In this document: one piece after another, positions 30,201-62,191 of the stretch
Layout of the letters: every line of letters starts with the position of its first letter
How positions within the stretch are numbered: the first letter of the stretch is position 1
The notes under the pieces: generated by a model
Database searches by the model: none
What the model was told of the DNA's origin: nothing
Seen by the model: only the letters and a program-made list of their open reading frames with translations
Assembly: GCA_000597885.1 (NCBI GenBank)
Contig: CP004371.1
Coordinates: 6,522,501-6,586,500, forward strand
Length of the DNA: 64,000 nt
DNA from: Flammeovirgaceae bacterium 311
Lineage (GTDB): Bacteria > Bacteroidota > Bacteroidia > Cytophagales > Cyclobacteriaceae
Direction: 5' to 3'
Made by a program: the position numbers and the translations under genes

Positions 30201-31289
30201 CACCAGCATGTTGTTGACAAAAGTGCTACCAGTGGTATTTCTGGAGTACATCCGAATGGCATCACGCTTAGGAGAAACAATGGTGTTGTTGTGTGCATGA
30301 AAAGCTTTGCCTGGCAATACAGTGCCTCTTTCGTCGATGAAGATACCATCTACACCTGCTCTTACAATCAGGTTGTTGTACATGTATACATCACCCATGC
30401 CCAGGCATTGTATACCCATGCCACCACCATCAATGATCAGGTTGTTGTAGTATTTACCTGTAGAACCACCACCAATCTGCAGACCATTTACCTGCACGGG
30501 TTTAAAAGGATCTGCACCATAACGGCGAATGGTATTGTTGAAAACCTCAACGTTCTTGGTGGCAGCGCTCACCTGAATGCCATCTGCACCGGTATCTTCG
30601 GTAATGTTGTTGTAAACTTTGAGGTTTTCAACAGCATGCGGATACAACGTACCACAGTCAGATGGTTTGCCAAAGTACCAGGTATGGCCTATATAGAGGC
30701 CTTCACCCACTGTGTGGTGAATAAAGTTGTCATGAATGGAAATGTTCTCCATTACAAAATTGCCCTGGTGATACTCCGTATTATGACAGTTAGGATCCAC
30801 CTTAGCCATGATTCCGGCAAAACCGGCAGAAGCAATTTCAATGTGGTCAAGCTCAAAGTCTGACTTTGTTACAAACATGGCAGAACTATTGCCTCCTTTC
30901 CTGATTAGGAAGCCGTACTTATGGTCTGGACTTCCGGTACCCGTAACACGGAAGTACTGAGAATTAGCAAAGGTAAATGTGCCTGACAGATCAGTGTTAT
31001 TCTCAAAAATAACTTGTCCGCCGCAGTTCTTGAAGATGATAGGCTGTTCTTTGGTACCTACGAAATCACGTAGTACCAACCTGCCTCTAACCCCTGCTGT
31101 GATACAGACCACATCACCTGGTTTTACATTAGGCATTTCAGCGGCTCTGACGTAGCTCTTATCCGGTCCTATTACATGATCGCAGCCACAGTCCTGTGCC
31201 TGGACTGTGAATGACAGGAAGGAAAAAGCAATAAATGCAGAAAAGGCAATAATCGTCTGGAGTGGTTTACTTAGTAATCTTTTGTTCAT
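27294..31289 (-). CDS. T9SS-secreted beta-helix/PKD/PA14/FN3 multidomain protein
   Basis: This 1331-residue protein starts at 31289, where the signal peptide begins (MNKRLLSKPLQ ... FTVQAQDCGCDHV); an in-frame ATG 32 codons upstream gives a poor signal. In order: beta-helix (about 30-450), three PKD-like domains of the PVVSAGADQTITLP type (about 456-750), PA14 (about 763-905, EGGTYTFYTNSDEGSQLFING), FN3 (about 930-1020), one copy of an undescribed module (about 1033-1211) and a T9SS type-A sorting domain (about 1250-1331, SLYPNAATDHI ... RFLKL). It is exported by T9SS and attached to the surface or released. PA14 and PKD suggest glycan binding; the beta-helix may bind or cleave polysaccharide. 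It is a tandem paralogue of the short beta-helix gene, with an added C-terminal half. Confidence 0.9.
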   Translation of the reverse strand: MNKRLLSKPLQTIIAFSAFIAFSFLSFTVQAQDCGCDHVIGPDKSYVRAAEMPNVKPGDVVCITAGVRGRLVLRDFVGTKEQPIIFKNCGGQVIFENNTDLSGTFTFANSQYFRVTGTGSPDHKYGFLIRKGGNSSAMFVTKSDFELDHIEIASAGFAGIMAKVDPNCHNTEYHQGNFVMENISIHDNFIHHTVGEGLYIGHTWYFGKPSDCGTLYPHAVENLKVYNNITEDTGADGIQVSAATKNVEVFNNTIRRYGADPFKPVQVNGLQIGGGSTGKYYNNLIIDGGGMGIQCLGMGDVYMYNNLIVRAGVDGIFIDERGTVLPGKAFHAHNNTIVSPKRDAIRMYSRNTTGSTFVNNMLVAPGSLNLNYYTRNQYIYIIDNTVNYSQNNNLFVPTADEAGFVNAAADDYQLKAKTPGVDKGVALSYFGFDYNKNPRPQGASFDIGAFEYSGEETTTPNQLPVVSAGADQTITLPTDSLQLTGTAVDADGTIVSQSWTKIDGPAASLSNQNTNTLRLNKLLEGTYTFRFTALDNAGASQTDDVQVTVKPAPVAPTPPANLPPVVDAGADRTITLPANSLSLLATASDPDGTVTAVKWTQISGPTADMAGQTTNSLSLSNLLEGEYGFRFTATDDLGAATADNLIVTVMPDATPVPPAPNELPVVSAGTDKTITLPDNSLVLKATATDADGTITSVEWTKVSGPEVSMSGQNTAGLSLSNLLEGTYIFRFTATDDAKESSADDVQVTVNPAVVVDNPTTPDPDTYKGLNFKYYATSNKNTWTRLPNFDALTPAKTGVVSNFTLSPTTQPDYFGFVFEGFVEVDEGGTYTFYTNSDEGSQLFINGKLVVDNDGSHKTQERSGTAALREGRHAIKVTYFEKNRDEMLEVSYAGPGIEKKRIPSDKLFTTNEETSSETDRISNPDASTTTEDENTPTSLTATLSTKGSAFLTWNDNSSEEIGYEIYMSSDNNSSYQQVGSTNSNKENYTVSGLDRNKVYHFKVRAKVYYKNTKFSKAVAVGTGDEETVATGDPLKMNKQIKVNFNYGNNVADNWNNFDTDPHPLDKISNLKDESGKETSVNITLLTPWGYARSGFNGYNDLGMVTGKDNGVFPDAVMKTCFWTERTEAEEMEVGGLEPNEYYSFTFFGSRDASGNRTTLYTIGKNTVSLDASYNTKKTVTINNARADATGKIKVLVQKHKDASFAYLNAMTIEATGYVDSKKTAKGAVAINPDATEEEAIDRSLVKDKIAYSLYPNAATDHIILRYEYTKADVALNIQIVDFTGNVRLSATEHTNDENGTMRIQLDQDKMLSGYYILRVTSVYGVETIRFLKL
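27655..28190 (-). other. Undescribed module, copy A (long beta-helix protein)
   Basis: This is residues about 1033-1211 of the long beta-helix protein. Key positions are IKVNFNYG, then WNNF, DESGKETSV, NGVFPDAV, TLYTIGKNTVSLD and FAYLNAMTIEATG. It follows an FN3 domain and precedes the sorting domain. Confidence 0.6.
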
Positions 31290-31688
31290 GACAGCTGTCC
31301 CTCTTAGCTTAATTTTAAATATTCCGTTATCAACTTTAGTGGTGTCTACTTGCCTGAATGTGCGTTTCGGCAAGTGATTGATCAATAAGTCGTTGCTGTG
31401 TATTGCAAGTATAGGGCGGGAAGCGTGAAAAAATTTAGTTGTATTAATTCCACACTTACAGAGTCAGATTCTTTAGAAAATGTGTATAGGTACAGGGGAG
31501 AAAACAGCTCAAAAAGCTAACGGTGTGCATAAGTTGTGGAACCCTTCTACAACTTTATTTCGTTAATCTAAATAGCTTCAGGAATAGTACTATCTTGCAA
31601 AAATGTGCAGATGTGCCAGTTGATGTAAGGAAGCACAGATTTGACCAAATTATTCGCATTAAAATTTGATTAAAGCACTTTTTTGACT
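31290..31688. other. 399-bp divergent leader of the long beta-helix gene and the EEP gene
   Basis: I see no gene here. It contains TTCCACA at 31448-31454 and TGTGGAA at 31535-31541, the same heptamer found three times in the leader of the T9SS esterase at 58322-61477. It also contains a palindrome ATTGATCAAT (31377-31386). No exact TAnnTTTG is seen; the nearest is TATACTTG on the minus strand near 31410. Confidence 0.5.
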
Positions 31689-36974: not shown

Positions 36975-38129
36975 TTATAAAGAAGCCATTTCAGCAGCAT
37001 TGGCTTTTACCTCCTTTGGCTTTCTGATGCTGAACAAGCGGTCTTTCAGGCGTAAAAAACGGTTTTCATACTGCTGAAAGCTAAGCCAGGATATAAACCA
37101 TACCAGGCAAAAGTAAAGGCCAAAAGATAACCATCCTTTTCCTACAACCGGCGCCATAACTTTAAGGAAGACTGCCATGATTGCCCAGTGAAATACATAC
37201 ATGCCATAGGAAACCCTGCCAATGGCAACCATAACAGGGTGTTCAAATATGCGCATGGGATAGCTCCTGGAAAAGGTATTGCTTGTGATAAGGCTTATTA
37301 TGAATGCTGCAAAGCAAAAGTTCAGCAAAGTATACGACCAAACGTGCTGATAGTTTTGTACAACACCAACTCCAAAGCCAAAATTATGAATATTTTGTTC
37401 GATACCCTGTTGCCCGAGCATAAACCAGTTTACTACGCCCGCCAGAGCTGTTAAGGCAAGTGTGGCAATGAGTAAACGGCCAGGATATACTATTCTTTCC
37501 GGCAGGCGGAAAAGTGCAATAGCACCGCCAATGGCAAAGGCATCGAAATGGCTAAGGGTAAACCAGTAAATAGCCTCACCGGCAGCCTCATCACTAAGAT
37601 TTGAGCCAATAAGCCACTCACCCAGCAGGTATCTGCACAGAGGGCCAGCTACAATAATAATTATTAAAGCCCGCTTCAGCCATTTATCCTTCAGCAGAAA
37701 CACCATAAGCGGCCATACCAGGTAAAACTGTTCCTCTACAGAAAGCGACCAGAAATGGGTGAAAAGAGGGGAGTGGGCCCATTCGGCAGAAAGCCGGGTG
37801 AAGTTAAAGGTATAGGTATAGAGATAGGGTAGCATGCCAGTAGTAGTTTCCGGCATAGATACAAACAGAAATACGGTGCTCACCAGGAGCAGGTATGTAA
37901 AGTAAAGGGGAAAGATGCGAAGGGATCTTCTCCAGTAAAATCTTTTCAGGTAGAAATTTAGTGACTGGTTTTTTTCATCCAGTAAAATGCGGGTAATCAG
38001 GAATCCAGACAGAACAAAGAATATTTGAACACCCACCCAGCCAGCATCAAAAAGCTGGAAGTGAAACAACATCACCAGTGCAACAGCCAGAGCTCTTATT
38101 CCATCCAAAGATCGGATATAACGAGTCAT
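36975..38129 (-). CDS. Acyltransferase-3 family membrane protein (OafA-like)
   Basis: This 384-residue protein has about ten transmembrane helices. The catalytic His23 follows the SLDGIRALAVALVML opening, and the RRSLRIFPLYF motif near residue 70 is the conserved basic pair of the family. SVEEQFYLVWPL further on is also typical. It transfers acyl (often acetyl) groups from the cytoplasm to sugars at the periplasmic face. The tail RKPKEVKANAAEMASL is cytosolic. It heads a two-gene unit with the sulfotransferase gene, 123 bp upstream of the end of the giant esterase gene, from which it is separated by that gene's terminator. Its substrate is probably the locus polysaccharide. Confidence 0.9.
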   Translation of the reverse strand: MTRYIRSLDGIRALAVALVMLFHFQLFDAGWVGVQIFFVLSGFLITRILLDEKNQSLNFYLKRFYWRRSLRIFPLYFTYLLLVSTVFLFVSMPETTTGMLPYLYTYTFNFTRLSAEWAHSPLFTHFWSLSVEEQFYLVWPLMVFLLKDKWLKRALIIIIVAGPLCRYLLGEWLIGSNLSDEAAGEAIYWFTLSHFDAFAIGGAIALFRLPERIVYPGRLLIATLALTALAGVVNWFMLGQQGIEQNIHNFGFGVGVVQNYQHVWSYTLLNFCFAAFIISLITSNTFSRSYPMRIFEHPVMVAIGRVSYGMYVFHWAIMAVFLKVMAPVVGKGWLSFGLYFCLVWFISWLSFQQYENRFLRLKDRLFSIRKPKEVKANAAEMASL

Positions 38130-38252: not shown

Positions 38253-41200
38253 TTATTGCTTCATAAATCTAACAACTTTACTTGTAAAATCCATAGATTT
38301 TATTCGTAAAATATATATTCCTTTATTAATATTTGGCTTTCGCAGATCAAGTGTAAAAATGTTCTCTCCCTCGCGGGCATTTGCCTGCTGCTGATGTACA
38401 GTTCTGCCCTGCAGGTTGATTACTTCCAGCTCCACCACGCCTGCATGTTCAGCCATGAAATTAACGAACATCTCGTCACTCACTGGGTTGGGGTATACGG
38501 TTGTAATCTCGTTCTGCACCTTAACCAGGCTGGCAGTGCTGGCTGCATCCTGCTGATACTTAGTACTTACGCTCGGATCAACCTTTTCTTTATTTCCATC
38601 CCGTACCTCTATCTCCAGGGCATTGATGTAGCCGTATTTTGCGTACTCACCACCTTCCAGCTCTATAAAGACTTCTTTATCTGGTGCTACCACGTCTCTG
38701 ATCACGGCAGTGTTCGTAAGATTGAACTGCGCATCAAGGCTTACTTTTTTGTTGCCGATCTTATATATCGTTACTCCATTGTCTTTTGTATTGGCATTAG
38801 GATATTCAGTAGCAGCATAGAAGCGGAAATTATAAGTTTGGCTTGGATCTAAATCAGAGATTTTTAGCCTGGCATATGAACCCAACTCAACAAAGTAAAA
38901 TTGTTCACTGACTGGGTCGGGATAGATTCCCGTGCCATTTGCTTTAGGTCCTCTGTTATTATAGCCATTAAAGTTTTCCTCAATTCTCAAATCAACAGGA
39001 GTACTATTGCCTCTTTCATTGATTAGATTATTCTTGGATGATTCTCTTGGAATACGATTAAAGTTGTTCCAGGAAGTGCTGGGGGCATTATAGCTGCCTC
39101 CATAATTGAAGTTAATCAGAATTTTATGCTTGAGTGTTGCAGCCTGGCTAATCTGGCTGGCATCTGACTCTGTTCCTCCTTTTGCAGCCTTTACATAATA
39201 TTCGTATCCTGTATCTGCAGATAAATTGCTTCTGTCAGAATAGCTAGTAGTATTAGCATCGGTAGTACCGATCTGTACAAAAGTTCCGGAAGGTAGGGTA
39301 CGCCTGTAAATATTAAACTGGTCTTCTCCTTTCGATCTGTCAGTCCATTTTAGATCAATTTGGTGAGCCCATCCTTTGCCATTTTGTTTGATGCTGGCAT
39401 GCGCTCTTAAATTACCAGGACTCATCATTTTACTGGCATCCGAATATTTTTCTATAACCATTGCATTCAGGAAGCTACCATGCAATCCATCACTGTAAAG
39501 GGCTATGGTTACTTCCCCGTTGGCAGGAGGCTTCACGCCATTGATCTGAACCGTATTATCGATATTGCTCTGAACAGGGAGCGATACCGTTTCGGACCCA
39601 ATGGTATAGGTAGTATTTCCTCCAAGACTTTTATAGACACTGCTGCCAAAAAAGACAAAGTTATAATTTAAGGAAGGATCGAGCCCTGTGATTTTTATCC
39701 TGGCAGTGTTACCCTTATTGACTCTATAGGAGGTTTTTGTAACTGCATCTGGAAACACACCGCTATTATCCAAAGTTGTTTCACCCCATTCATTAGCTCC
39801 ATTCCAGGAATTGAGTAATGTCAATTTGAAAGGCTCCGTCATATTGCTTTCATTTTGCAGGTTCTCAATTGCTTTGTTCCCTGGCACTACGTTAGTGTTA
39901 TTCCAGGGTCTGCCACCTCTTAAAGGGTGATCATACATAAAGTTAATGTAAGTAGAAATTTTTTCACTTTCGGTAATGCTGATACTGAAGGTTACGTCAT
40001 CCTCCAACGCGCCGTCAGTAGCAGTAAGCTGTACGCCACTGTAATAACCAATTTCGGAATAGGAAGCATCCAGGGTGATGACTATTTTTTTAGTTTCAGC
40101 ATCAAAGTTTACAGATGCAAATGAGGGGAGGTAACGTGTGATCAGTGCAATCTCATCCTCAACATTTTCATCGGTTACACTATATTCATAGGTTTTGCTC
40201 TGGCCCTGAATAGCATGCAGCACCTTAGGGAAAGCTTCATCGATTACCGGCGCCCGGTTATTAGGATCAGCCGGATCAGTTGGCTCCTCGGGATCAGTAG
40301 GGTCTGTTGGGCCTTCCGGATCAGTTGGGTCTGTTGGATTAGTAGGATCCGTTGGGTCGGTGGGATCCGTTGGTTCTTCAGGATCGGTATCAGCCTCATC
40401 TTCCACTTTGATTGTTGAAACTTCACTCCAGGATGAAGATTGATTATTTGCTGCAGATACTGCCTGAACCCTATAGTGATAGGTGCTTCCATAAGTAACA
40501 TCTACATCTGTAAAGTCTGATGTATTTGCCTCGAAACTACCCAGGCTTGTAAAATTAACTCCATCAGTACTTCTCTGCAGTTCATAACCGGATTCATTGC
40601 AGGCATTGTCAAGCCAGCTGAGTTCAACAATACCACTTTCTGTTAATGTAGCACTGAGTTGTGTAGGTACTGTTGGTACAGAATTATCTTCATAGCTGGC
40701 TTCAATGATGATGCCATTGATGTAGGAATACTGAGTTGGATCCTGCTGCCGAACGGTGAGCGTAAGCTCGCCTGTAGGGGCTTGTAATTTATCAAAGCTA
40801 ACAGCCTGACTGGTGTTGTTTCTTACATCAAGTGTTTTACTTTCATTTCCTATGGTATAGCGGGTAATGATGGGTGCATCGTCGGTTGTAGCCTTGCTGC
40901 CTATGATGGTAATGTTATAGTAAAGTGTTTTATCGAGCCCGCTGATCTTTATTTTACGGTCCTTGTCTGTCCACCCATAATAATGTGTCTTGAGCACGGC
41001 ATCAGGGAATGTGCTGTTTGCATTGCTGCCAGTAACTGCACCTGCTTCAGCACGGATAAATCCATCTAAAAATCTGATATCTATGGTGGTGGCATTGCCC
41101 TCCACATCCTTTGCACCGCTTAGCTTCGTGCCAATTGCAGGATAGCGTGCTACATTATTCCATGGCGCCGGAGCCTGTTCGTTTGAGCTGTCGTTAAAGT

Positions 41201-44200
41201 TAACGAGTACCTTCTGAGAAGTTTCAACAGGAGCAACAACAACTGTAAAGTTAGCCCAGTTGGAGGCGCCATGTGAATCAGTAACTTTTACCTTAACAGC
41301 ATATTCGCCGGCATGACCATAGTTTGGAGCAATGGTAAAATAGCCGGTATTATTGCCTCTGTTTGTAAACTCTATAAAAGTTGGAGCACCTTCTATCGTA
41401 AAGTCAAGGATTTCACCATTGCCATCCCAGGCTCTTACTTCAGCAGTTTGGGTACTTTTTTCATATAAGCTCATAGAGGCAATTTCCATTATGCCAGGGG
41501 CAGCATTTTCGCCAACTTCTATCGAAACTGTTTCTGAGAATGATCCACCGTTGCCGTCAGAAACCTCCAGTACAATACCTTCATAGGTGCCCATGTCATC
41601 TCTTAAAGGCTGTAGGTTTAAGCTTGCAGTACCATCATGATTATCAACAAATGTGGCAAATGCCGGTAGGTTCTGGGCAGAATAAGCAAGCGCATCATTT
41701 TCCTTGTCAGATGCAACTAGCTTTATGTTTGTAACATCATCCCGCCTGGCATAAATTGTACCCACCTTAGAAAGTACAGGCGCGCTGTTGGTACCCAATA
41801 TAGTTGCGGTATTGCTGTAGCCAGAGGTAACATTGCTGTTATAAGCCTTTACCCGATAGGTATAGGTAGCGGTGCCACCGGCATTAACATCAGTAAAGCT
41901 GGTATTGGAATTTGTGGTTTTACTTATCAGCTTACTGTTTCTGTATATTTCAAATCCTTCTTCATTAGAGGCATTGTCCTGCCAGTTCAACACAACAGTG
42001 TTGGCATCCTGGCGGCTGGCTGTTAACTGGCTGGGTGCATTGATCTCTGTTCCACCACTGCCTGGCTCTGTCTTTGCATTTACCCAGATACCATCAGCAT
42101 CTTTGCCAATAAAATCAGAGCCACCGCCATTGCTTAATGAGCGTATTTGATAGTAGTAGCGGGTATCGGGCTGAAGATTTATATCAATATACTCTACAAC
42201 ATTTGCACCTGCTGTAGTGACATAAGTAAATGGACCACTATTACTGGTGCTGCGGTTTATTTCAAAACCTGTTTCATTATCACTGTTGTCTGTCCACTTC
42301 AGTAATATATTGTTCCCATCCTTTGTTGTTGCGGTAAATTCAGAAGGAGCTGTTGGTACATTTGGCTGGGTATACTCATCCTTTAAGGCAGAAGCAGGGA
42401 TTGTTTCTTTGGCCAGACCGGGGCCTTCCCAGCTTACCTTCAGCATTTCACCAGAACCTGTTCTTTCAAAGTATAATACCTCAATTTTATGCGCTCCGGC
42501 AGTTAATGAAACTTGTCCGCTTTTTTCTTCTGATGCATGAAGACCGTCATTATCTACTATCTTAGAGCCGTTTATAGATAAAGTACTGCCATCGTCTGAT
42601 TCAGTATAAAATGTATAGCTACCAGTTTCAGGTATGATGATGAAGCCTTCAAATTTATAAGCATATCTATCTTTTGGCCTTTGTGGGTTTGCATTGATGT
42701 CGAAAGTAGCTGTGCTGCCAGTTTTTACCGGAGTAAGGCCTGCTATGCTCCCAACACTTTTTATGTCAGCTTCATAATAGGTATAAATGAGCCCCTGGTT
42801 AAAGGTGCCGGCAGTAACCTGATTACTGTAGGGAGATTTGTTGCCATAAATATCTACGGCTCTAATAGCAAATGTGAACCATTGTTTCTCGGCAAGATTG
42901 TTAAGTGCGATATCTCTATTCTTAGTGGTTGCAACTATCGTAGCATTAACAACATCATATACTTCATAGCTTAAAACACCTTCTTCTTCAGATCCAGTTG
43001 GTGAATTCCACTGCAACGAAATTGTAGTTCGGGAAGAACTAGTCACTTTAAGTCCTGTTGGTGCAGAAGCGGATACGTCTACCTTTTTAGTTTTTCCGGT
43101 AGTTTTTACATAATCCTTCTCAAGATAAGCTGTGCTACCCTCGTTATTTACTGCTCTTAACCTATAGAAATAACGGGTATAGCTGTTTAATTCTTTATGT
43201 GAGTAGGTAGTTGTATTGGCAGGAAGGGTAGCAATCAGCTCCCAGGGTGCTTCGTTTGTTCTGTTACCATAGAGCTCAAAGCTGGTTTCATTACTGTTAT
43301 CTTCCCAGTTAAGTCTTAATTCTGTTTCAGAAACGCTGTTTGCTGTGAAATTTGCAGGAATACCAAGGTCGGGGTTTATTTCGTTGGATACCTTGATGCT
43401 ATTTGAATGAACAGGACTAGGACAGCCCAATTGTTCTGTTACCACAACTGAATAGACACCTGGTTTGGATGTTACTAAACTATCTGACGTTTCTTTTTCC
43501 TGAAGAACATCATCCTTATACCAGTGATAATCCTGGTAGGGTTCACCATTCGGATCGAGCTTGGGGGCTTTGATGGTAACAAAGTACTTGTCATCAAGAG
43601 TGGGCAGGGCGGTAGAACTGGTGGCGTATATTTCTACTGGTTTAGTATAATCAATCTTTTTGATCTGGAGCGGAGGTCCCCATTCCGACCAGTCACTATC
43701 AGCGGTTTTCTTGATCCGTACCTGATAGGAGCCTACTGCAGAGAATACTAATTCATTCCTACTGTCATTTTGTACGGTTACCCCATCTTTTTGCCACTCA
43801 AACTGATAGAAACCCTGCTTTATGCCCATGGTGCCATTTGGTTCTTCACCCGGGCAAAAATTTTGCTTGAAATATAGAGCATGCGGACGCAACATGTGGG
43901 TACGCATCATGTAGGGGAAAAAACCAGGTTCAGTATACATTACGAACCAGGTGCCATGCCCGATTTTAGGATATTCCTGTAAACGATAATTCGCCCCGAT
44001 TTCCTCATATGCATTTTTTATTCTGTTGGCTGCAGAAGGAGCGGGTCTGCCATCCAATCCTCCCTGTGCATGCCAGATGGAAGTATATTTTAAGGTTTCC
44101 CTCCATGGAATATGCATATTTGGCTCTGATGAAGACATCAAGATGGCACCTGTTATTTTGGTGGGATTATCATTTGCAATTTTCCAGCCGGCACCTCCGC

Positions 44201-44729
44201 CTGCAGAATATCCCTGCAGCATGACACGGTATTCATCTACCCTTAAATCCTTTATTGCAAGATCTATAAAAGCTGCTATGGCCTCTCTTTCTGGTGTGGA
44301 GAAAACACTACTGCAATCATCATCATCAGGATGGCAACCTACTGACTGAGGCGCCATTACAAAGCCATCATAGGTTCCATTGTTCACAGCACTCAGATGT
44401 CTTTGTCCGCCATCCTTTATCTGTTCTTCATTATCAAATCCGCTACTCCAACCATCTTCTCCAATGCCATGGAGCATTATCATCAGTGGATATTTTTTGC
44501 CGGGATCATCGGTAGAGTAATTTTTTGGATACAGCAAGCGGAAGGGCATGCCATTGATGATGTATGCTTTATAAGGAGAGGTATCCCACTTTAAAGTGTG
44601 TTTATAGCACCACTCATACATCTGGCCTTTTTGATGGTTTGTACTGGAGCAGTCGCCAGTCGTTTCCTGAGCAAACAAAGAGAAAGTGCTGCAGAGTAGT
44701 ACAGCGAGGAGAAGTAGAATGTTTTTCAT
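38253..44729 (-). CDS. Giant T9SS-secreted esterase with PA14, FN3, cadherin-like and novel modules (2158 aa)
   Basis: The signal peptide ends LFAQ. An alpha/beta-hydrolase esterase domain (about 45-290) has the nucleophile motif GYSAGGG (Ser near 175) and the His region GHGTWF; it resembles PHB-depolymerase/feruloyl-esterase-type proteins. Then come Ig-like regions, FN3 domains, PA14 (about 640-780, ETGSYTFYTESDDGSTLSING), further FN3, two cadherin-like domains (about 1010-1190), novel module B (about 1172-1346), FN3, a Thr-Asp-Pro-rich linker (about 1446-1490), a cadherin-like domain, module C (about 1591-1763), FN3, module D (about 1866-2043) and a T9SS sorting domain (about 2080-2158, VYPNPVSDEMF ... 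RFMKQ). The enzyme probably deacylates a glycan at the cell surface. It is the largest gene in the window and a paralogue of the gene at 45021-49850. Confidence 0.87.
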   Translation of the reverse strand: MKNILLLLAVLLCSTFSLFAQETTGDCSSTNHQKGQMYEWCYKHTLKWDTSPYKAYIINGMPFRLLYPKNYSTDDPGKKYPLMIMLHGIGEDGWSSGFDNEEQIKDGGQRHLSAVNNGTYDGFVMAPQSVGCHPDDDDCSSVFSTPEREAIAAFIDLAIKDLRVDEYRVMLQGYSAGGGAGWKIANDNPTKITGAILMSSSEPNMHIPWRETLKYTSIWHAQGGLDGRPAPSAANRIKNAYEEIGANYRLQEYPKIGHGTWFVMYTEPGFFPYMMRTHMLRPHALYFKQNFCPGEEPNGTMGIKQGFYQFEWQKDGVTVQNDSRNELVFSAVGSYQVRIKKTADSDWSEWGPPLQIKKIDYTKPVEIYATSSTALPTLDDKYFVTIKAPKLDPNGEPYQDYHWYKDDVLQEKETSDSLVTSKPGVYSVVVTEQLGCPSPVHSNSIKVSNEINPDLGIPANFTANSVSETELRLNWEDNSNETSFELYGNRTNEAPWELIATLPANTTTYSHKELNSYTRYFYRLRAVNNEGSTAYLEKDYVKTTGKTKKVDVSASAPTGLKVTSSSRTTISLQWNSPTGSEEEGVLSYEVYDVVNATIVATTKNRDIALNNLAEKQWFTFAIRAVDIYGNKSPYSNQVTAGTFNQGLIYTYYEADIKSVGSIAGLTPVKTGSTATFDINANPQRPKDRYAYKFEGFIIIPETGSYTFYTESDDGSTLSINGSKIVDNDGLHASEEKSGQVSLTAGAHKIEVLYFERTGSGEMLKVSWEGPGLAKETIPASALKDEYTQPNVPTAPSEFTATTKDGNNILLKWTDNSDNETGFEINRSTSNSGPFTYVTTAGANVVEYIDINLQPDTRYYYQIRSLSNGGGSDFIGKDADGIWVNAKTEPGSGGTEINAPSQLTASRQDANTVVLNWQDNASNEEGFEIYRNSKLISKTTNSNTSFTDVNAGGTATYTYRVKAYNSNVTSGYSNTATILGTNSAPVLSKVGTIYARRDDVTNIKLVASDKENDALAYSAQNLPAFATFVDNHDGTASLNLQPLRDDMGTYEGIVLEVSDGNGGSFSETVSIEVGENAAPGIMEIASMSLYEKSTQTAEVRAWDGNGEILDFTIEGAPTFIEFTNRGNNTGYFTIAPNYGHAGEYAVKVKVTDSHGASNWANFTVVVAPVETSQKVLVNFNDSSNEQAPAPWNNVARYPAIGTKLSGAKDVEGNATTIDIRFLDGFIRAEAGAVTGSNANSTFPDAVLKTHYYGWTDKDRKIKISGLDKTLYYNITIIGSKATTDDAPIITRYTIGNESKTLDVRNNTSQAVSFDKLQAPTGELTLTVRQQDPTQYSYINGIIIEASYEDNSVPTVPTQLSATLTESGIVELSWLDNACNESGYELQRSTDGVNFTSLGSFEANTSDFTDVDVTYGSTYHYRVQAVSAANNQSSSWSEVSTIKVEDEADTDPEEPTDPTDPTDPTNPTDPTDPEGPTDPTDPEEPTDPADPNNRAPVIDEAFPKVLHAIQGQSKTYEYSVTDENVEDEIALITRYLPSFASVNFDAETKKIVITLDASYSEIGYYSGVQLTATDGALEDDVTFSISITESEKISTYINFMYDHPLRGGRPWNNTNVVPGNKAIENLQNESNMTEPFKLTLLNSWNGANEWGETTLDNSGVFPDAVTKTSYRVNKGNTARIKITGLDPSLNYNFVFFGSSVYKSLGGNTTYTIGSETVSLPVQSNIDNTVQINGVKPPANGEVTIALYSDGLHGSFLNAMVIEKYSDASKMMSPGNLRAHASIKQNGKGWAHQIDLKWTDRSKGEDQFNIYRRTLPSGTFVQIGTTDANTTSYSDRSNLSADTGYEYYVKAAKGGTESDASQISQAATLKHKILINFNYGGSYNAPSTSWNNFNRIPRESSKNNLINERGNSTPVDLRIEENFNGYNNRGPKANGTGIYPDPVSEQFYFVELGSYARLKISDLDPSQTYNFRFYAATEYPNANTKDNGVTIYKIGNKKVSLDAQFNLTNTAVIRDVVAPDKEVFIELEGGEYAKYGYINALEIEVRDGNKEKVDPSVSTKYQQDAASTASLVKVQNEITTVYPNPVSDEMFVNFMAEHAGVVELEVINLQGRTVHQQQANAREGENIFTLDLRKPNINKGIYILRIKSMDFTSKVVRFMKQ
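38600..39130 (-). other. Undescribed module, copy D
   Basis: This is residues about 1866-2043 of the 2158-residue esterase. Conserved points are ILINFNYGG, SWNNFN, NERGNSTPVDL, GIYPDPV, KISDLDPSQTYNFRF, YKIGNKKVSLDAQFNL and YGYINALEIEV. It is the copy nearest the sorting domain. Confidence 0.6.
39440..39955 (-). other. Undescribed module, copy C
   Basis: This is residues about 1591-1763. Conserved points are TYINFMYDHP, PWNNTN, GVFPDAVTK, KITGLDPSLNYNFVFFGS, YTIGSETVSL and SFLNAMVIEKY. It follows a cadherin-like domain and is most like copy E of the neighbouring esterase. Confidence 0.6.
40258..40392 (-). repeat. Thr-Asp-Pro-rich linker, tandem short repeats
   Basis: Within the 2158-residue esterase the DNA repeats GGATC(A/C)GT(T/G)GG-like units, encoding runs of TDPTDPTDP, TDPEEP and TDPEGP (residues about 1446-1490). 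It is a flexible spacer between FN3 and cadherin-like domains. Repeat number is likely to vary between strains. Confidence 0.75.
40690..41214 (-). other. Undescribed module, copy B
   Basis: This is residues about 1172-1346. Conserved points are KVLVNFNDSS, PWNNV, FPDAVLKTH, KISGLDKTLYYNITIIGS, YTIGNESKTLDV and YSYINGIIIEASY. It lies after two cadherin-like domains and before an FN3. Confidence 0.6.
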
Positions 44730-44809
44730 ACTAAAAAATTACATATCACCTGCCTACAAAAATTGATGTAAGCTTTAAGGTTGTAAAATTAATATTTTAT
44801 TAGATAAGG

Positions 44810-44817
44810 CAAACTTA
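44810..44817 (-). promoter_or_regulatory. Candidate -7 element for the 2158-residue esterase gene (TAAGTTTG)
   Basis: The plus strand reads CAAACTTA, an exact TAnnTTTG on the minus strand, 81 bp upstream of the ATG. An inverted repeat TTAGCAT/ATGCTAA (44879-44899) lies further upstream. Confidence 0.35.
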
Positions 44818-44960
44818 AGAGAGATAAATTGACATTAAAATAATATATATGATAACTAATATTATTATTTCAATAGTTTTAGCATGTAAGAAATGCTAAG
44901 GCAAATGAATGTTTCCAATCCTGCTGCACAAGATAGCTTTGATTTCATACACCCTATACG

Positions 44961-44990
44961 AAAAAGGCAGCCTTAGGGCTGCCTTTTTTT
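44961..44990 (-). terminator. Terminator of the esterase gene at 45021-49850
   Basis: AAAAAGGCAGCC and GGCTGCCTTTTT form a stem around TTAG. It lies 30 bp past the stop on the minus strand, with T-runs on both sides. Confidence 0.85.
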
Positions 44991-45020
44991 CCATTAATGT
45001 TATAAATATTTGCCGGTGCA

Positions 45021-48000
45021 TTAGTGCTTAATGAACCTGACAAATCTGCTTTCTGCCGCATCAGACTGAATTCTAAGGATATAGATGCCTTTGTCTATTC
45101 CGCTGTTGCTTAAGTCGATGAAGAAAGTATTATCTCCTTTTTCCGTTCTAACCTCCTGGCTATAAATTGTCTTACCTCTAAGGTCGGTTACCTGTAGTAA
45201 ACATGCACTTTCTCCAGAGGCTGTATGACTCACAAATAGGATACCATTGGTTGGGTTGGGGTAAACAAGTGTCTCCTGCACCACCGGCTGGTCCTCTGCT
45301 ACTCTTGCACTGGTGATCATTTCTTCGGTTTTGGTTGTGTTAGCACTTGCACCGGCTGCTTCACGGCTGCCATCACGTGCTTCGATCACCAGTGCTGTCA
45401 GGTAACCATAACGGGCAAATTCACCGGCTTCAACCTCTATGATCACATCTCCACCCGTCGCTTCTATGTCTCTAATCACTGCGGTATTCTTCAGGTTCGA
45501 CTGTGCATCCAGCGTTACTTTCTTGTTTCCTATCCTGTATTCGCTCACCCCGTTTTCTGTACCAAATGCTGTGGAAGCAAAAAAGCGGAAGTTATAGATC
45601 AGATCAGGATTCAGTCCATACACGCGTATGTAGGCTACAGAGCCCACCTCATTAAAGTAGAAGCTCTTGATCACCCGGTCGGGATAAATACCCAGTCCTT
45701 TTGCATCAGGCCCGAAATTGTTGCTTCCGTCAAAACCTTCCAGTAGCTTAAAGTTGAGATAGGTGCTTTGCGCACTGGCATCTTTCAGGTTATACCAGGC
45801 ATTGCCGGTAACCGGGAGTTTGGTCAGGTTATTCCAGGGCAGTTCAGCTTTTGTCTGGCTGTCTTTGTTCATATTCAGATATACCTCATACTGCAGCGTA
45901 GCACTTTGTTTTATTTCGCTGTAGGCCGAGAATTTGGTGCCGCTCGCAGCCCTGATGCGGTACTCATAGCCCGTGTTCTCCGCTAAGCCCTTGTCTGAAT
46001 AAAGAGTGGTATTCGCTGCATTGGTCGCAATTTTTGCAAAGCTGCCGGAGGGGAGGGTTCGTCTCCAGATCTCAAAACCTGTTTCCTGGTAAGAATTATC
46101 GGTCCAGCTAAGGTCTATCTGTGTTTTTGAAACAGCCTGGGCTGTTAATCTGCCCGGCCGCAGCACCAGCCCGTTGTCGTCGTATTGTTCTATAACCATG
46201 GCATTCAGGTAACCACCCTTTGTGGCATTACTGCTGCCCGTTACAGTTACCCATACTTCACCATTGGCATCGGCTTTAAGGCCATTGATCTGTACAGTTT
46301 TATCACTATTGCTCTGCACATCCAGCATTACAGTTTCGGAACCTACGGTATATTTGGTTGTGCCATTGTTGCTCTTGTAGATGCTGCTGCCGTAAAAAAC
46401 CAGGTTGTAACGCAGGCTGGCCTTCAGGCCCGATATTTTAAATTGTGCAGTTTTACCCGGATTGATGATGTATGCAGATTTACTAACTGCGTTCGGGTAC
46501 AGGCCTGTGTTGTCCAGGCTGCTTTCGCCATAGGATTTATTACCTGAAAATGGTTGGACCAGGGTCAGGTAATAATTAGTGCTTTTGCCATTTTCATCCA
46601 GCAGGTTCTTGTTGCCGGGAATGATCTTATTTGCAGAACCAGCAAAAACATTGGTGTTGTTCCAGGGTTTTGGCGCCAGCTCCGGATGGGTATAGGTAAA
46701 GTTGATATAGGTGGCTGTTTTCTCACTGTTTTTTACGTTTATGTTAAAGCTGACATCTGTTTCCAGTGATCCATCGGTGGCAGTAAACTGGATACCGGTA
46801 TAGTAACCAATGTGTTTTACCGTGGGATTTACTACAACCTTAGCTTTGGTGCTACTCACTTTCTCAATGCTGGCAAATTGGGGCAGGTACCTGCTGATGA
46901 GGGTAAGTGCATCGCCATTTGGGTCGGACAGATCGAAGTGTACTTCTGTGGTGGTACCCTCCGGTGCAACAACCACACCGGGGAAGCCTGCAATAACAGG
47001 AGCCTTATTGTTACCATGATCCTGAAGCCCCAGATTTACTGCATTGCTCCAGCCTGAGGTGCCGCTGCTGTTGTAAGCCCTGACTTTGTAGGTATGTGTG
47101 GTGGTGCCGCTTGCGCTTTCGTCCAGATAGCTGATAATGTTGTTGTTCACCTGGCTTATCAGCACATCGTTCCGGTATACTTCGAAACCTTCCTCGTTGC
47201 CGGAATTGTCTTTCCAGCTAAGTAAAACACTCGTGCTGCTTTTACGGCTTACAGTAAGTGTGTTTGGTGCGGTTAGGGTACCTGTAGCTGATTTAGTAGT
47301 CGCATTGATCCAGGTGCCGTCGCTGCCCTTACCTGCAAAATCTGACTCTCCCGTACTGCCTGCCGCACGTACTTTATAAAAGTATTTAGTTGCTGAGGCA
47401 AGGTCTGCATCCTGATACTGTGTGGCATTGGCGGCTGTTTTCTTTACCAGCACATAAGGTCCTGTGTTAGAGGTACTCCTGAAAACCTCAAAGCTGCTTT
47501 CGTTGCTGCTGTTGTCGGTCCATTTAATCAGGTTACTGTGGTAATCTACTGCGGTAGCAGTAGCAGCAGTAGGTGCTGTTGGTGGCTTGGGTATGCTGAT
47601 ACTTTCTTTGAAGGCAGTCCCGGGCATCAGCTGCTTGCTGATGCCGGGTCCCTGCCAGCGTACCTCCAGCATTTCCCCGGATCCGGTTCTTTCAAAGTAT
47701 AGTATAGTAATGGGATGGAAGCCAGGAGTGAGGCTGATGGTACCTGACTTTTCATTTGTGCTGCTATGAATGCCATCATTGTTTACAACCAGCGTACCAT
47801 TAATCCTGACAGTACTGCCATCATCAGATTTGGTAAAGAAGGTGTAAGTGCCTGCGGTGGCGATGTTTAAAAATCCTTCAAACCTGAAGGCGAAGTAATC
47901 ATTTTTTTGACGATGGGAAATTATATCAACAGTAGGCGTTATGCCTTTTTTGACAACCGGCAGGCCTGTTACTTCATTCACAGTATTGATGTTCCCCTGA

Positions 48001-49850
48001 TAGTAAGTATAGGACAATCCGTTAATATAGGTGCCCCCGCTTGCCTGGTTGCTGAACGCCGAACGGTTTCCCTGCTGGTCTACCGCTCTCACAGCAAAAT
48101 TGTAAAGCTGCTTTTCAGCTAGGTTTTTTACTGAAAATTCAGTTTTTGTCGTGGTGCCCAGGAGGGTTGACTGGTTATTAGTATAAACCTCATACACCAG
48201 ATCGGCCTGCTGATCGGCATTATCGCTGGCCGGCAGCCAATTTAGGTCAATGCTGCTTCTGGTGGTTTTTATCACCTGTAGATCACCAGGGGCTGCAGGT
48301 GCCACAGCATCTGCCATAGTTTTACCGCTGCCTGTAGCATACTGGGAGCCGCCGCTATTATTGTAGGCGCGTACAGAATAAAAATAGCGGGTATAAGTTT
48401 CAAGCTGTTTATCCTGATAAGTGGTGGTATTGGCTGGGAGCTGGGAAGCCAGTACCCAGGGACCCGACGCAGTTTTGCCGCGGTATACTTCAAAGCCCAG
48501 TTCATTGGTGCTGTTATCATTCCAGTGAAGATTTAGCTGTGTAACTGATTCGGTTGCTGCTACCAGGTTAGATGGTGAGGGAAGAACTCCTACCTTATTA
48601 ACTGTAACAACAATGGGTGCAGAGTTGGCGCTGGGGCAGCCAAAGGCTTCTGTTACTGAGGCACTATAGGTGCCGGCGCTCTTCACAACCAGGCTATCCA
48701 GGGTAGATCCGTTTGACCATTTATAGTTTTGAAAACCTTTGGGAGCTCGTAAAGTAACTGAGGTTCTGCCATCAAGGGTGGGCAGTGCCGTAGGGCCGGT
48801 CGCTACAATGGTAGGTGTGGCAGTGGGGGCTATGCGTTGAACTTTCAGGGGAGCAGACCATGCTGACCATACTCCTTTGTGTTTGATACGGACGGTATAT
48901 TGACCTTCTCCGGAAAACTGAAGCTCGTTGCTGTTGCCGCCTGTTGCTGCACCGTCTTTTCTCCACTCATATCCTTCAAAACCATGTTTAACACCCATGA
49001 TGCCTGATATAGACTCGCCGGTACAGAAGTTGTATTTAAAGTTAAGGGCATGGATGCGCAGGGTTGAGTTCTGCATCATAAAGGAGAAAAAGTCGGGCTC
49101 CAGGTACATGGCTTTCCAAGTGCCGTGGCCCAGCTCGTGATAGTATGTATAACGGTAGTTAGCGCCAACTGCTCTGAACTTGCTGGCCACATTATTGCCA
49201 GATACAGGTTTGGGGCTGTCGTCGCGGCCTCCCTGTGAGTGCCATACGGCTGTATATTTAAGTGTGGCTGCATAGCCGGCTACTGTGGCATCTGCCGACG
49301 ACATGGGGATAATGCCCGAAAAGACTTTTGGATTTTCATAAGCCATTTTCCAGGCTGTTCCGCCTCCTGCAGAGTAACCCTGCAGCTGTACCCTAAACTC
49401 ATCTACCCGGTAGTTAGCAATGGCGTACTCAATAAATTTCAATATTTTGGCACGTTCGCCGCTATTGAAGTACTCGGTAGGCGATTGGGGTGCCATGATA
49501 AAACCATCAAACTTGCCGCTGTTCACGGCATCAAGGTGGTTTTTGCCTCCATACTGCAGTTGATGATTGTTATCAGTGCCCTTTTCACCAATACCGTGTA
49601 TGAGTATCATCAGCGGATACTTTTTGCTTGATGGCGAGGAGTTGTAATCTTTTGGAAACAGGAGGCGGAAAGGCATACCATTGATAATGTAGGCCTTGTA
49701 AGGTGAGGTATCCCAGTTGGTGGCTACGTCTTTGGTGTAGCACCAGCTATACACTTTATCGTCCGATGGCGGTAGTGGCGGACAATTTTGTGCCAGTAGC
49801 CCGAAGCTGTAAGACAGCATCAAGGGCAGGAAGAACAGCATTTTTTTCAT
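45021..49850 (-). CDS. Giant T9SS-secreted esterase, paralogue of the neighbour (1609 aa)
   Basis: The start is set at 49850, where the signal peptide begins (MKKMLFFLPLMLSYSFGLLAQ); an in-frame ATG 40 codons upstream precedes no signal. The esterase domain (about 35-280) has GYSAGGGTAW (Ser near 160) and GHGTWKAMY, matching the neighbouring 2158-residue protein. An Ig-like region, FN3 domains, PA14 (about 610-747, TAGTYTFFTKSDDGSTVRING), FN3, a cadherin-like domain, module E (about 1045-1222), FN3, module F (about 1320-1490) and a T9SS sorting domain (LVYPNPTNGILF ... RFIKH) follow. It has the same overall plan as the neighbour with fewer inserts, so the two are an old tandem duplication. 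The likely role is deacylation of a surface or environmental glycan. Confidence 0.87.
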   Translation of the reverse strand: MKKMLFFLPLMLSYSFGLLAQNCPPLPPSDDKVYSWCYTKDVATNWDTSPYKAYIINGMPFRLLFPKDYNSSPSSKKYPLMILIHGIGEKGTDNNHQLQYGGKNHLDAVNSGKFDGFIMAPQSPTEYFNSGERAKILKFIEYAIANYRVDEFRVQLQGYSAGGGTAWKMAYENPKVFSGIIPMSSADATVAGYAATLKYTAVWHSQGGRDDSPKPVSGNNVASKFRAVGANYRYTYYHELGHGTWKAMYLEPDFFSFMMQNSTLRIHALNFKYNFCTGESISGIMGVKHGFEGYEWRKDGAATGGNSNELQFSGEGQYTVRIKHKGVWSAWSAPLKVQRIAPTATPTIVATGPTALPTLDGRTSVTLRAPKGFQNYKWSNGSTLDSLVVKSAGTYSASVTEAFGCPSANSAPIVVTVNKVGVLPSPSNLVAATESVTQLNLHWNDNSTNELGFEVYRGKTASGPWVLASQLPANTTTYQDKQLETYTRYFYSVRAYNNSGGSQYATGSGKTMADAVAPAAPGDLQVIKTTRSSIDLNWLPASDNADQQADLVYEVYTNNQSTLLGTTTKTEFSVKNLAEKQLYNFAVRAVDQQGNRSAFSNQASGGTYINGLSYTYYQGNINTVNEVTGLPVVKKGITPTVDIISHRQKNDYFAFRFEGFLNIATAGTYTFFTKSDDGSTVRINGTLVVNNDGIHSSTNEKSGTISLTPGFHPITILYFERTGSGEMLEVRWQGPGISKQLMPGTAFKESISIPKPPTAPTAATATAVDYHSNLIKWTDNSSNESSFEVFRSTSNTGPYVLVKKTAANATQYQDADLASATKYFYKVRAAGSTGESDFAGKGSDGTWINATTKSATGTLTAPNTLTVSRKSSTSVLLSWKDNSGNEEGFEVYRNDVLISQVNNNIISYLDESASGTTTHTYKVRAYNSSGTSGWSNAVNLGLQDHGNNKAPVIAGFPGVVVAPEGTTTEVHFDLSDPNGDALTLISRYLPQFASIEKVSSTKAKVVVNPTVKHIGYYTGIQFTATDGSLETDVSFNINVKNSEKTATYINFTYTHPELAPKPWNNTNVFAGSANKIIPGNKNLLDENGKSTNYYLTLVQPFSGNKSYGESSLDNTGLYPNAVSKSAYIINPGKTAQFKISGLKASLRYNLVFYGSSIYKSNNGTTKYTVGSETVMLDVQSNSDKTVQINGLKADANGEVWVTVTGSSNATKGGYLNAMVIEQYDDNGLVLRPGRLTAQAVSKTQIDLSWTDNSYQETGFEIWRRTLPSGSFAKIATNAANTTLYSDKGLAENTGYEYRIRAASGTKFSAYSEIKQSATLQYEVYLNMNKDSQTKAELPWNNLTKLPVTGNAWYNLKDASAQSTYLNFKLLEGFDGSNNFGPDAKGLGIYPDRVIKSFYFNEVGSVAYIRVYGLNPDLIYNFRFFASTAFGTENGVSEYRIGNKKVTLDAQSNLKNTAVIRDIEATGGDVIIEVEAGEFARYGYLTALVIEARDGSREAAGASANTTKTEEMITSARVAEDQPVVQETLVYPNPTNGILFVSHTASGESACLLQVTDLRGKTIYSQEVRTEKGDNTFFIDLSNSGIDKGIYILRIQSDAAESRFVRFIKH
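45380..45890 (-). other. Undescribed module, copy F
   Basis: This is residues about 1320-1490 of the 1609-residue esterase. Conserved points are EVYLNMNKDS, PWNNLTKLP, GIYPDRVIK, RVYGLNPDLIYNFRFFAS, YRIGNKKVTLDAQSNL and YGYLTALVIEARD. It is most like copy D. Confidence 0.6.
46185..46715 (-). other. Undescribed module, copy E
   Basis: This is residues about 1045-1222. Conserved points are TYINFTYTHPE, PWNNTNVF, LYPNAVSKS, KISGLKASLRYNLVFYGS, YTVGSETVMLDVQSN and GYLNAMVIEQY. It follows a cadherin-like domain, as copy C does. Confidence 0.6.
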
Positions 49851-50563
49851 AAAAAATACAGAACGTTGCTCTTTAAAAAGTAAGTCAGGAATACAGGGAA
49901 TAAAAAATATTTTCCTTAAAGAATAGTATCTCAAGGCTAAAGGAAGACGCCAGAACAACCAGCTATTCATCTAGCTTTCAGGAGTTCTGATTAAGATTAT
50001 CTCTTGTAATGAATATAAGAAATAATATTAATATCTATACTATGCTTCCAGGCATAAAGCATAAGTTCAGGTGGTTAGCAGTATTACGGAAAACCCTTAT
50101 AAGACAGCTAATCATTTTCGGGAAAATTTTTTTGACTCGTCCTGGGCTTAAAACTCCTAATATTACCTGGCTGCAGGTGGTGCATTTAACAGCCCGCGCC
50201 TGATGGGTCTATTATGCTAAAGTTTCCCCGTATCTGGGATTAAAAGTAAGCGTGCTGCTCATTCTGTTGTGGCCGACGAATTATGTGTTTCACCTGAAAT
50301 ACCATAGCACAACATACAAACGAACAGATGATGGAAATCTTGATGAGCTAATTATCTCTGGATAAATGATTTTTTTTGTATCCTAAATCTAACGTTTAGC
50401 GTATAGGATTACCAATGCGTATGTACTGAACCAGCTACTACATCTGCTCATGACCCTACTGATGGCTGCAGCTTTTTTTGCCTTTTATCACTTTCCCTTA
50501 ACTTGCCACCAGACAATAAAGGCGTTGCACTCCAACCTCAATAGTCACTGCCTTAACTAAAGT
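49851..50563. other. 713-bp intergenic region between the esterase and the GT4 gene
   Basis: This is a divergent, AT-rich region with no gene I can support. A short hairpin TATGC/GCATA (50041-50056) and T-runs near 50125 and 50370 are the only structures seen. I find no exact TAnnTTTG for the + strand gene. Confidence 0.5.
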
Positions 50564-56963: not shown

Positions 56964-58052
56964 TTAGCTGTTTATAATAGGGTTGAGCGAAGGTTGTTTT
57001 ACCGGTGCCTCTACGCGTTGTTTCACGGCAGTTTCAGGAGAGAAGAGGAACCAGAACCCAAAATTTGTACAGAATCTATACAGATAAATAGGCATGATAA
57101 GGCTAAACAAAATACTGACAGGTAGTATAACCCAAAAGAGATCTATTCCGAAACCATAAACAAAAAGAATTCTAATGGCGGCACCTACCACACTGTGCAG
57201 CAGGTATACATAGAGGGAGTGCTGACCTATAGTTCTGATAACTGACAGATAACCTGACTTTATGATAGATAGTCTGTAAGAGGTCCAGATAATGGCACAG
57301 CTGCCGGTAAAGGCAAAGAGTAACAGTAGCGTTGGCTGATCGCGCCAGGTCTCCTGAAAAAGCACCCACTCGCCTGCAATGGCCAGTAGGATGAATAGAA
57401 GCAGTAGCCGGGGAGAGGCCAGTTTCACATAGTTATCTTTATTCAGAATGGCTTTGGAGATAATATCACCGGCAACAAAAAAGATGAAAAGCCTGAAAAT
57501 ATGAAACACTACGGAAATATTGGCCAGGTATGGAGACAGGTAATAAAATATAAGACCAATGGCAAATAGTAAAAGTTGTTGTCCCCTGAATATTTTATAC
57601 ATCACCAGGTAGAGCACAGATACATTGAACAGCGCCACTAAAAACCACCAGTGGCTGGCGGGTGCGATAATGATGGAAAGATAGGTCCATGCATCCACAT
57701 TTGCATTCACATAACCACTCATGATCAGCTGTAGCGTGGTGATAATGAAAGCCCAGATGAGGTAAGGATATAGAATGGTTTTGCTTTTGTGTAAGACATA
57801 GCCAGTCTGAGAACGCTTGGCAATGCTCATTCTAAAGAAGATGCCACTAAGCAGAAAAAACAGGGGCATTCTAAAGGTGAGGCCTACATGGTGAATTACC
57901 TCCAGAACAGTTTCATCAATCACTATGCCTGACAGGTCCATTCCTTTCGTTACATGCCGCACAACCACCATGATAATGGCAATTCCTTTGGCATAATCCA
58001 TCCAGGCAAGTCGGTTGTTCTGGTTAGCTGAGAGAGTAAAAAATTTCTGCAT
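56964..58052 (-). CDS. Acyltransferase-3 family membrane protein
   Basis: This 362-residue protein has about ten membrane helices. RLAWMDYAKGIAIIMVVVRHV carries the family His at residue 33 after the D-x-x-K-G motif of the subgroup. FRMPLFFLLSGIFF is also conserved. It acylates a sugar or lipid at the membrane. It differs from the OafA-like protein at 36975 (SLDGIRALA), so the locus encodes two distinct acyltransferases, which suits more than one acyl decoration. The C-terminal tail is charged and cytosolic. It is the first gene of a unit with the downstream GT-C gene. Confidence 0.88.
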   Translation of the reverse strand: MQKFFTLSANQNNRLAWMDYAKGIAIIMVVVRHVTKGMDLSGIVIDETVLEVIHHVGLTFRMPLFFLLSGIFFRMSIAKRSQTGYVLHKSKTILYPYLIWAFIITTLQLIMSGYVNANVDAWTYLSIIIAPASHWWFLVALFNVSVLYLVMYKIFRGQQLLLFAIGLIFYYLSPYLANISVVFHIFRLFIFFVAGDIISKAILNKDNYVKLASPRLLLLFILLAIAGEWVLFQETWRDQPTLLLLFAFTGSCAIIWTSYRLSIIKSGYLSVIRTIGQHSLYVYLLHSVVGAAIRILFVYGFGIDLFWVILPVSILFSLIMPIYLYRFCTNFGFWFLFSPETAVKQRVEAPVKQPSLNPIINS

Positions 58053-61477: not shown

Positions 61478-62191
61478 TGTGCTGGTAGGTTTTGGGTGTA
61501 TAGGTGTATGTGAAAAGTACATGGGTGACTATCTGACTTCCAATACTTTAAAACTAGAAAAAAATAGCACCAATACCCAAATCTGGCATTCCAGGGCAAA
61601 TGTGTAATTGTATTTATTTAATATTTATATAAATATATTGCGCTTGGGGAACTGAAAAACTTACCATTTTACGCTGCTTCTTACATGTGGAATTGTTCCA
61701 CAAAATGTACGCAATGCCTATTGTTAAATTTGTGAATAATATTTCGCGTAACCGCAATCGTTTGAAATTGTTGTTGAAACATAATTCGTGTGTGGAATTA
61801 TGAAACGCTTTTAAGAGATAACAGCGTTTTCTTACTAAATAGTGAAACTTTTTGTTTGCTACTCTCGTATAAGAGCAGTTTTAGGCAAAACAGGCACAAA
61901 TAATAATGTCAAATAAGATAAGCAGTTGAGTAACAATTGCTAACATTTACTGCTATTGCCAGGTTTACCAGCTTTGGGAAGTTGCAGACCTTCTGCTCAG
62001 AGAACTGAATTGTACGGGTACAGATCAAACGTAACCCCATTTTATATAGTATAGGGCAGCTATATATTACATAAGTATAGCTGCCTGTATTCAATGAGCT
62101 GTTACCAACCAATGATCACCGAAGCGGGAGAATTAGATTTGAGTCCGAAGATGAGATGGGGAACAGCAGGCCTTTAGTGCCTGCAGCTGGT
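61478..62191. other. 714-bp intergenic region upstream of the T9SS esterase
   Basis: No gene is supported here. It holds the inverted repeat TGTGGAA-TTG-TTCCACA (61686-61702), a further TGTGGAA (61791-61797), a hairpin AAACGCT/AGCGTTT (61803-61829), and a GCAGGC/GCCTGC hairpin (62166-62184) just past the GT2 stop. The AT-rich part around 61610-61640 may carry the esterase promoter, but I see no exact TAnnTTTG at a sensible distance. Confidence 0.5.

Follow-up and report, generated by a model that had tools for sequence, protein, structure and literature searches.

A candidate carbohydrate-binding module family of Bacteroidota in secreted, esterase-like proteins of Flammeovirgaceae bacterium 311

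We analysed a 64,000-nucleotide stretch of the Flammeovirgaceae bacterium 311 genome (contig CP004371.1, positions 6,522,501 to 6,586,500; hereafter the window), which encodes six copies of one protein module in two esterase-like proteins and one beta-helix protein. The module belongs to a carbohydrate-binding module (CBM)-like family that is real and is unlabelled in the libraries searched; its predicted fold is a known one. The best explanation is that the module is a non-catalytic CBM, in a family of its own, that would anchor esterases and a beta-helix protein exported by the type IX secretion system (T9SS) to a polysaccharide, most likely the bacterium's own exopolysaccharide. We give this explanation a probability of about 0.6.

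Six module copies in three secreted proteins

The original prediction placed six copies of an undescribed module in three secreted proteins. Cutting out and aligning the stretches that contain WNN recovered all six at essentially the same places, all on the minus strand. Copy A (27651..28190) lies in a beta-helix/PKD/PA14/FN3 protein of a 1363-amino-acid (aa) open reading frame (ORF), copies B (40695..41216), C (39444..39959) and D (38601..39125) in a 2158-aa putative esterase, and copies E (46182..46718) and F (45375..45890) in a 1649/1609-aa putative esterase. The range first proposed for the module, 38600 to 46715, does not reach copy A and stops 3 bases short of the end of E.

All pairs of copies were significant by BLASTP with the six copies as the only search space (27–52 % identity, E 2e-16 to 6e-61), from the weakest, B and C (31 %, E 2e-16), to the strongest, C and E (52 %, E 6e-61). 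Copy C is thus nearest to E, and D is the nearest copy to F (49 %). Since the closest matches are C to E and D to F, the two window esterases look like paralogues that kept their last two modules in order, and copy B looks like an extra module in the longer one. The columns invariant in all six copies are N8, W19, N20, N21, P78, V81, L101, Y107, Y125, G128, L134, N139, I177 and E178 (copy A numbering). The predicted motif set held with few exceptions: WNN, P(D/N).V and (Y/F)(L/I)(N/T)(A/G)..IE are present in 6/6 copies, the glycine shortly ahead of the proline is absent from copy B, GL followed by tyrosine after five more residues occurs in 5/6 (copy D has DL), and the N-terminal NF occurs in 5/6 (copy F has NM). 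The copies appear to have the proposed FN3 or cadherin-like flanks, on a reading of the sequence and of the Pfam tables, in which only the best stretch per family is listed.

Host protein 1 (27294..31385, minus strand) consists, by Pfam and NCBIfam, of a right-handed beta-helix, three PKD domains, PA14, FN3, copy A and a T9SS type A sorting tail. Host protein 2 (38253..44729, minus strand) has an alpha/beta-hydrolase-like head followed by FN3 domains, PA14, Big_9/cadherin-like domains, copies B, C and D and a T9SS tail. Host protein 3 (45021..49970, minus strand) is a paralogous esterase-like protein with copies E and F and a T9SS tail; its ORF has 1649 aa, or 1609 aa if a later methionine is the start. 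The ends of the hosts matched Por_Secre_tail in Pfam and the T9SS type A tail in NCBIfam, and these sorting tails support a predicted export by the T9SS. The heads of hosts 2 and 3 may be esterases, as suggested by Abhydrolase_2 matches below the cut-off (E 0.0013 and 0.00037, respectively; Pfam), by NF050058 matches that were both below the cut-off as well (E 8e-7 and 8e-11; NCBIfam), by a GYSAGG motif noted by eye in the sequence and by a clear Abhydrolase_2 match (E 8e-11) in a neighbour. This neighbour (58322..61522, minus strand) is a further secreted esterase-like protein with PKD, PA14 and a sorting tail, for which a protein search of the bacterium's own genome reported no module match. 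Besides the six copies of the window, the same search matched the module twice in a third protein (1634 aa, 5.607–5.608 Mb), eight matches in all; the head of this protein is 50–62 % identical to the window esterases.

Search for a named family

The original prediction knew no named family for the module and had set a significant profile match to such a family beforehand as the refuting observation. We searched for one and found none: no curated model in Pfam, NCBIfam or PHROGs did better than E 0.0037. In whole-protein scans of the three hosts (Pfam, NCBIfam), no family above the cut-off had its listed best stretch on a module. Single-member hmmscan runs against Pfam, with E limits of 10, 1 and 1 for sets of 6, 42 and 22 members, gave best E values of 0.057, 0.0037 and 0.0075, respectively; for the 42 members, the best were 0.0039 in NCBIfam and 0.006 in PHROGs. 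No family matched more than three members in any of these sets.

The fn3 model of Pfam matched 2/42 and 3/22 members (best E 0.0037). Comparison of PDB sequences with profiles A1, A2, A3 and A6 gave either no match or, for the most part, short stretches of FN3-type chains. The FN3-containing chains cover ~22–75 profile positions around the GL.....Y motif and not the whole module, and the matches of titin and fibronectin chains (best 6e-6, whole chain) were discarded as a local resemblance, being sums of weak per-repeat matches around the same motif. We therefore rejected Fibronectin type III as the identity of the module, since no match spanned the whole domain.

Neither Malectin (PF11721) nor AGA-YXIM_GBD (PF21254) was among the Pfam matches of the 6, 42 and 22 members, and the latter had no match in the bacterium's own genome. 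Profile–profile comparison with 19 malectin sequences from 25 loci of our own survey gave a probability of 16–17 % for profiles A2 and A5 (E 0.0015–0.0016) and of 0.1–7 % for A1, A3, A4, the Bacteroides-type rows and all 51 rows. With A5, the malectin set (E 0.0015) scored better than FN3, PA14, PKD and YxiM-type sets (0.0074 to 0.18), of which the FN3, PA14 and PKD sets were 10, 3 and 3 hand-cut sequences with rough ends. The bacterium's own genome also holds six malectin (PF11721) matches above the cut-off, at 4.75–4.79 Mb and 5.49 Mb, separate from the module. Our literature searches, which covered one open-licence library, listed no paper described as treating the module, and none that tied exopolysaccharide, esterases and Wzc to type IX secretion.

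Predicted fold

AlphaFold2 models of copy B (pLDDT 90.5, pTM 0.88) and copy C (pLDDT 88.1, pTM 0.87) predict with confidence an all-beta sandwich that is structurally closest to malectin-like and CBM domains. In a second look at the Foldseek-ranked chains, made with the copy C model only, the predicted fold aligned over most of the domain with solved members of the galactose-binding-like/malectin-like beta-sandwich. The proposal of a beta-sandwich carbohydrate-binding or adhesion module is supported by this predicted fold and by its structural matches.

In sequence, the closest known domains of this fold are distant from the module. Malectin and malectin-like proteins (PF11721; human malectin 9ikp; ANXUR and FERONIA ectodomains) are 10–16 % identical to it, with no Pfam match, and CBM36 (7ay3), CBM61 (2xom), CBM16 (2zey) and CBM35 (2w46) have the same fold with no sequence similarity found. 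The N-terminal domain of YxiM (PDB 2o14; AGA-YXIM_GBD), also among the structural matches, has 7 % identity and no profile similarity (E 0.07–0.48 against three sequences). Attachment to an SGNH hydrolase, a trait of AGA-YXIM_GBD, is found in some relatives of the module but not in the window copies, which sit on alpha/beta-hydrolase-like and beta-helix proteins.

Relatives in Bacteroidota and their partners

Genome surveys were confined to the phylum of the window, Bacteroidota, and scored at most eight candidates per genome, so that copy numbers there may be low. The six-copy profile matched 12 of 395 genomes at E <= 1e-5, and a broader 34-row profile matched 16, the weakest being G020, G080, G291 and G190 (E 4e-7 to 1e-5; G numbers denote genomes and L numbers loci). 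The distribution is patchy, since none of eight further genomes sampled from the window's taxonomic family matched. A contig search found a relative with 64 % identity in Cesiribacter sp. SM1. A tblastn search of plasmid records with a distant relative returned two, one from Flammeovirgaceae and one from Bacteroides finegoldii. Within the genus to which G238 belongs, 14/119 genomes matched (11/70 among those >=90 % complete and <=5 % contaminated); this genus is probably Bacteroides, because one of its genomes, G485, encodes a protein identical to the B. finegoldii one at 664/665 residues. The window profile matched a 17-row alignment built from this genus alone at a probability of 99.7 % (E 8e-27), compared with 0.4 % (E 0.14) for the reversed profile as control, and in distant members DFG, (P)WNN, SDNRET and similar motifs replace some window residues. 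Judged by these profiles, the window copies and the Bacteroides-type members are one family across Bacteroidota. A family without a match in Pfam, NCBIfam or PHROGs that occurs in both Bacteroides-type and environmental Cytophagales-type genomes would help to annotate long secreted proteins.

The partners of the module are esterase-like, SGNH, beta-helix and surface glycan-binding protein (SGBP)-type proteins, with activities predicted from sequence. SGNH hydrolase attachment was found by Pfam in L016 (as SGNH/GDSL), L018 and L039, and by reading in L017, L014, L111 and L114; by reading, L017/L026 have SGNH/GDSL partners. DUF4886 is the partner in L018 (Pfam) and in L014, L111, L114 and others (by reading). 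The sole solved structure matching the L114 protein, 4i8i, corresponds to residues 141–398, the hydrolase, and the module at 408–604 lies outside it. L015 reads as a module with an apparent T9SS tail alone. L040 (plasmid CP139022.1, 6816–11669) is one secreted protein of an esterase head, the module, PKD domains and a beta-helix, and so joins in a single polypeptide the esterase head and beta-helix that the window encodes separately; on reading, its module lies between two halves of an apparent PKD domain.

The gene order on the B. finegoldii plasmid is TonB receptor, SusD-like protein, GH30, a module-bearing DUF5016/5125/5121 protein, a module-bearing SGNH protein and GH3. Among the 14 matching genomes of the G238 genus, five (G403, G406, G483, G485, G499) share a pair of module-bearing proteins with open frames of 669–692 and 855–863 aa. 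BT3313, a DUF5016-containing SGBP of a beta-1,6-glucan locus, binds beta-1,6-glucan by isothermal titration calorimetry (PMC5481569); the B. finegoldii DUF5016/5125/5121 protein, likewise with DUF5016, has the module at its C-terminus. A DUF5125 search of the 395 genomes gave matches in four, of which two (G238, G002) were above the cut-off.

An exopolysaccharide locus around the host genes

All 29 long ORFs of the window were scanned for protein families (E limits of 0.1, 0.001, 0.0001 and 0.0001). Judged by family content, the gene set around the hosts is an exopolysaccharide locus. This setting, like the occurrence of family members in Bacteroides-type glycan-utilisation loci and on SGNH hydrolases, was not part of the original prediction. 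It includes a Wzc-like Wzz + AAA_31 protein (19746..22016, plus strand), an O-antigen ligase/Wzy_C protein (23388..24875, plus strand), an Acyl_transf_3 acyltransferase adjoining host protein 2 (36975..38129, minus strand) and a second one (56964..58052, minus strand). Also near the hosts are glycosyltransferases, OEP, an Exo_endo_phos protein, UbiA, FAD_binding_4, a short-chain dehydrogenase and a sulfotransferase. The FAD_binding_4 protein and the dehydrogenase by UbiA (33818–35883) are reminiscent of DprE1/DprE2, which make an arabinose precursor.

With window proteins as tblastn queries, the module-bearing esterases of G391, G007 and G253 proved to have homologues of Wzc, Wzy, OEP and the acyltransferase as neighbours; in G292 the neighbours are Wzc and acyltransferase homologues. 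The L040 plasmid (16.5 kb) carries Wzc, Wzy and OEP homologues and no acyltransferase, and Cesiribacter keeps the UbiA-to-acyltransferase block at 82–91 % identity. In five G genomes, the sole homologue of the window Wzc (E <= 1e-20) lies 0.4–8.3 kb from the nearest module, split into two pieces in three of them. At E <= 1e-50, a Wzc homologue occurs in 21/395 genomes, namely in 5/5 with the module in a window-type esterase versus 16/390 others (Fisher p 2.6e-7, a guide only, because the groups were drawn up with the data already in view and a single family supplies four of the five genomes). Wzc stretches were retrieved from seven of these 16 genomes, which lack module-bearing esterases, and none contained a module; distant esterase and beta-helix matches were present in one (G186) and an acyltransferase homologue in two.

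We propose that the module has a galactose-binding-like (malectin-like) beta-sandwich fold and a patchy distribution in Bacteroidota. The esterases and the beta-helix protein would leave the cell via the type IX system, and each would be kept on the polysaccharide by its one to three modules, with the PA14, FN3, PKD and cadherin-like domains as probable spacers. The catalytic heads would thereby act at high local concentration. Here the target would most likely be the bacterium's own exopolysaccharide, which the surrounding locus would produce in acylated, perhaps sulfated, form and the esterases would trim. The predicted fold and the partners suggest glycan binding, and the gene neighbourhood points to the own exopolysaccharide. 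A narrower version is tentative, and we would not bet on it: the Cytophagales-type branch of the family would travel with exopolysaccharide loci as a self-recognition lectin, anchoring type IX-exported esterases and beta-helix proteins to the cell's own exopolysaccharide. Acyl groups that the acyltransferases of the locus had attached would then be removed or patterned outside the cell. If the binding reading is true, the module would be a new glycan probe and type IX secretion would be tied to modification of the cell's own exopolysaccharide. The exopolysaccharide link is the part worth a specialist's test.

Weighing the alternatives

Several observations weigh against an exopolysaccharide-binding module. 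A common fold alone shows no function, glycan binding being predicted from fold and partners, and there is the weak profile similarity to malectin (at best 17 %, E 0.0015). The third esterase in the bacterium's own genome (L132, two copies) had no match to the tested exopolysaccharide proteins in the 20 kb around it, so the linkage is not strict. Among the 11 other module-matching genomes, only G080, itself a weak match, has a Wzc-like gene (E <= 1e-50), and on another contig; the link thus concerns the esterase branch and not the whole family. The Bacteroides-type members examined sit in contexts other than exopolysaccharide loci. Furthermore, in G238, a genome with no module match, the comparable surface protein (L099) stops at 441 aa. 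The module is therefore an optional addition in that protein type, and the glucan binding of BT3313 is not assignable to it; we dropped this transfer of function. Finally, the window holds, at its end remote from the hosts, a TonB-receptor plug protein (3871–7125) and a SusD-like protein (7138–8634), which leaves room for uptake of foreign glycans.

This pair belongs to a rather doubtful alternative, in which the module binds algal, plant or fungal food polysaccharide and the exopolysaccharide neighbourhood is incidental. The SusC/D-GH30-GH3 locus of the Bacteroides-type members and the SGNH/DUF4886 hydrolases among the partners fit it, as does the Reg_prop/Y_Y_Y/histidine-kinase protein adjoining the window pair (297–8634 together). 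However, 19 kb separate the pair from copy A and ~30 kb separate it from the esterases. Genes of the Wzc, Wzy, OEP, acyltransferase or glycosyltransferase kinds lie closer, and such genes recur beside module-bearing esterases elsewhere. Nor did the scans of the 29 ORFs report a glycoside hydrolase family, apart from two weak accessory-domain matches: Glyco_hydro_39_C (E 0.005, below the cut-off) over FN3 in host 1 and a similarly weak GH85_C in hosts 2 and 3. We consider it unlikely that the module is a divergent member of Malectin or AGA-YXIM_GBD and not a separate family. Its top structural matches are of these kinds and A5 prefers the malectin set to the controls, but neither Pfam model matched any member set and the malectin probabilities stayed low. 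Still less likely is a structural spacer or protein–protein adhesion domain (stalk, docking). Copies do alternate with FN3/cadherin-like domains ahead of the sorting tail, and repeats are usual in stalks, yet the module also occurs singly, at hydrolase ends or in short proteins of secreted or lipoprotein-like type (L015, L109, L111 and L114, partly by reading), where a stalk is hard to explain, and the predicted fold is lectin-like. A catalytic role is very improbable: many Cytophagales-type copies keep a long polar loop, TGNNSG(V/I)(Y/F)PD.V, and Ser106 (38/51) and Asp71 (32/51) are moderately kept, but the kept columns have no His, Cys or Glu, the strongest being W, N, Y, L, G and P. Anchoring to the bacterium's own exopolysaccharide remains the explanation that we prefer.

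Further observations

The module matches in G020, G291 and G370, three genomes of one genus in the window's phylum, are weak (L052, L053, L055 and L065; E 4e-9 to 5e-6), and their proteins have PEP-CTERM-like C-termini by reading. G121 encodes single-module proteins of 224–231 aa without an obvious signal peptide (L019, L027). These, and a tail-fibre-like reading of L020, suggested a phage origin, which we rejected: two viral-contig scans (queries L019 and L015) and a search of phage records (query L019) returned no relative. In the window, host protein 1 (27294–31385) is adjacent to a similar beta-helix protein at 25777–27147, and by Pfam only the longer of the two has PKD, PA14, FN3, the module and a sorting tail.

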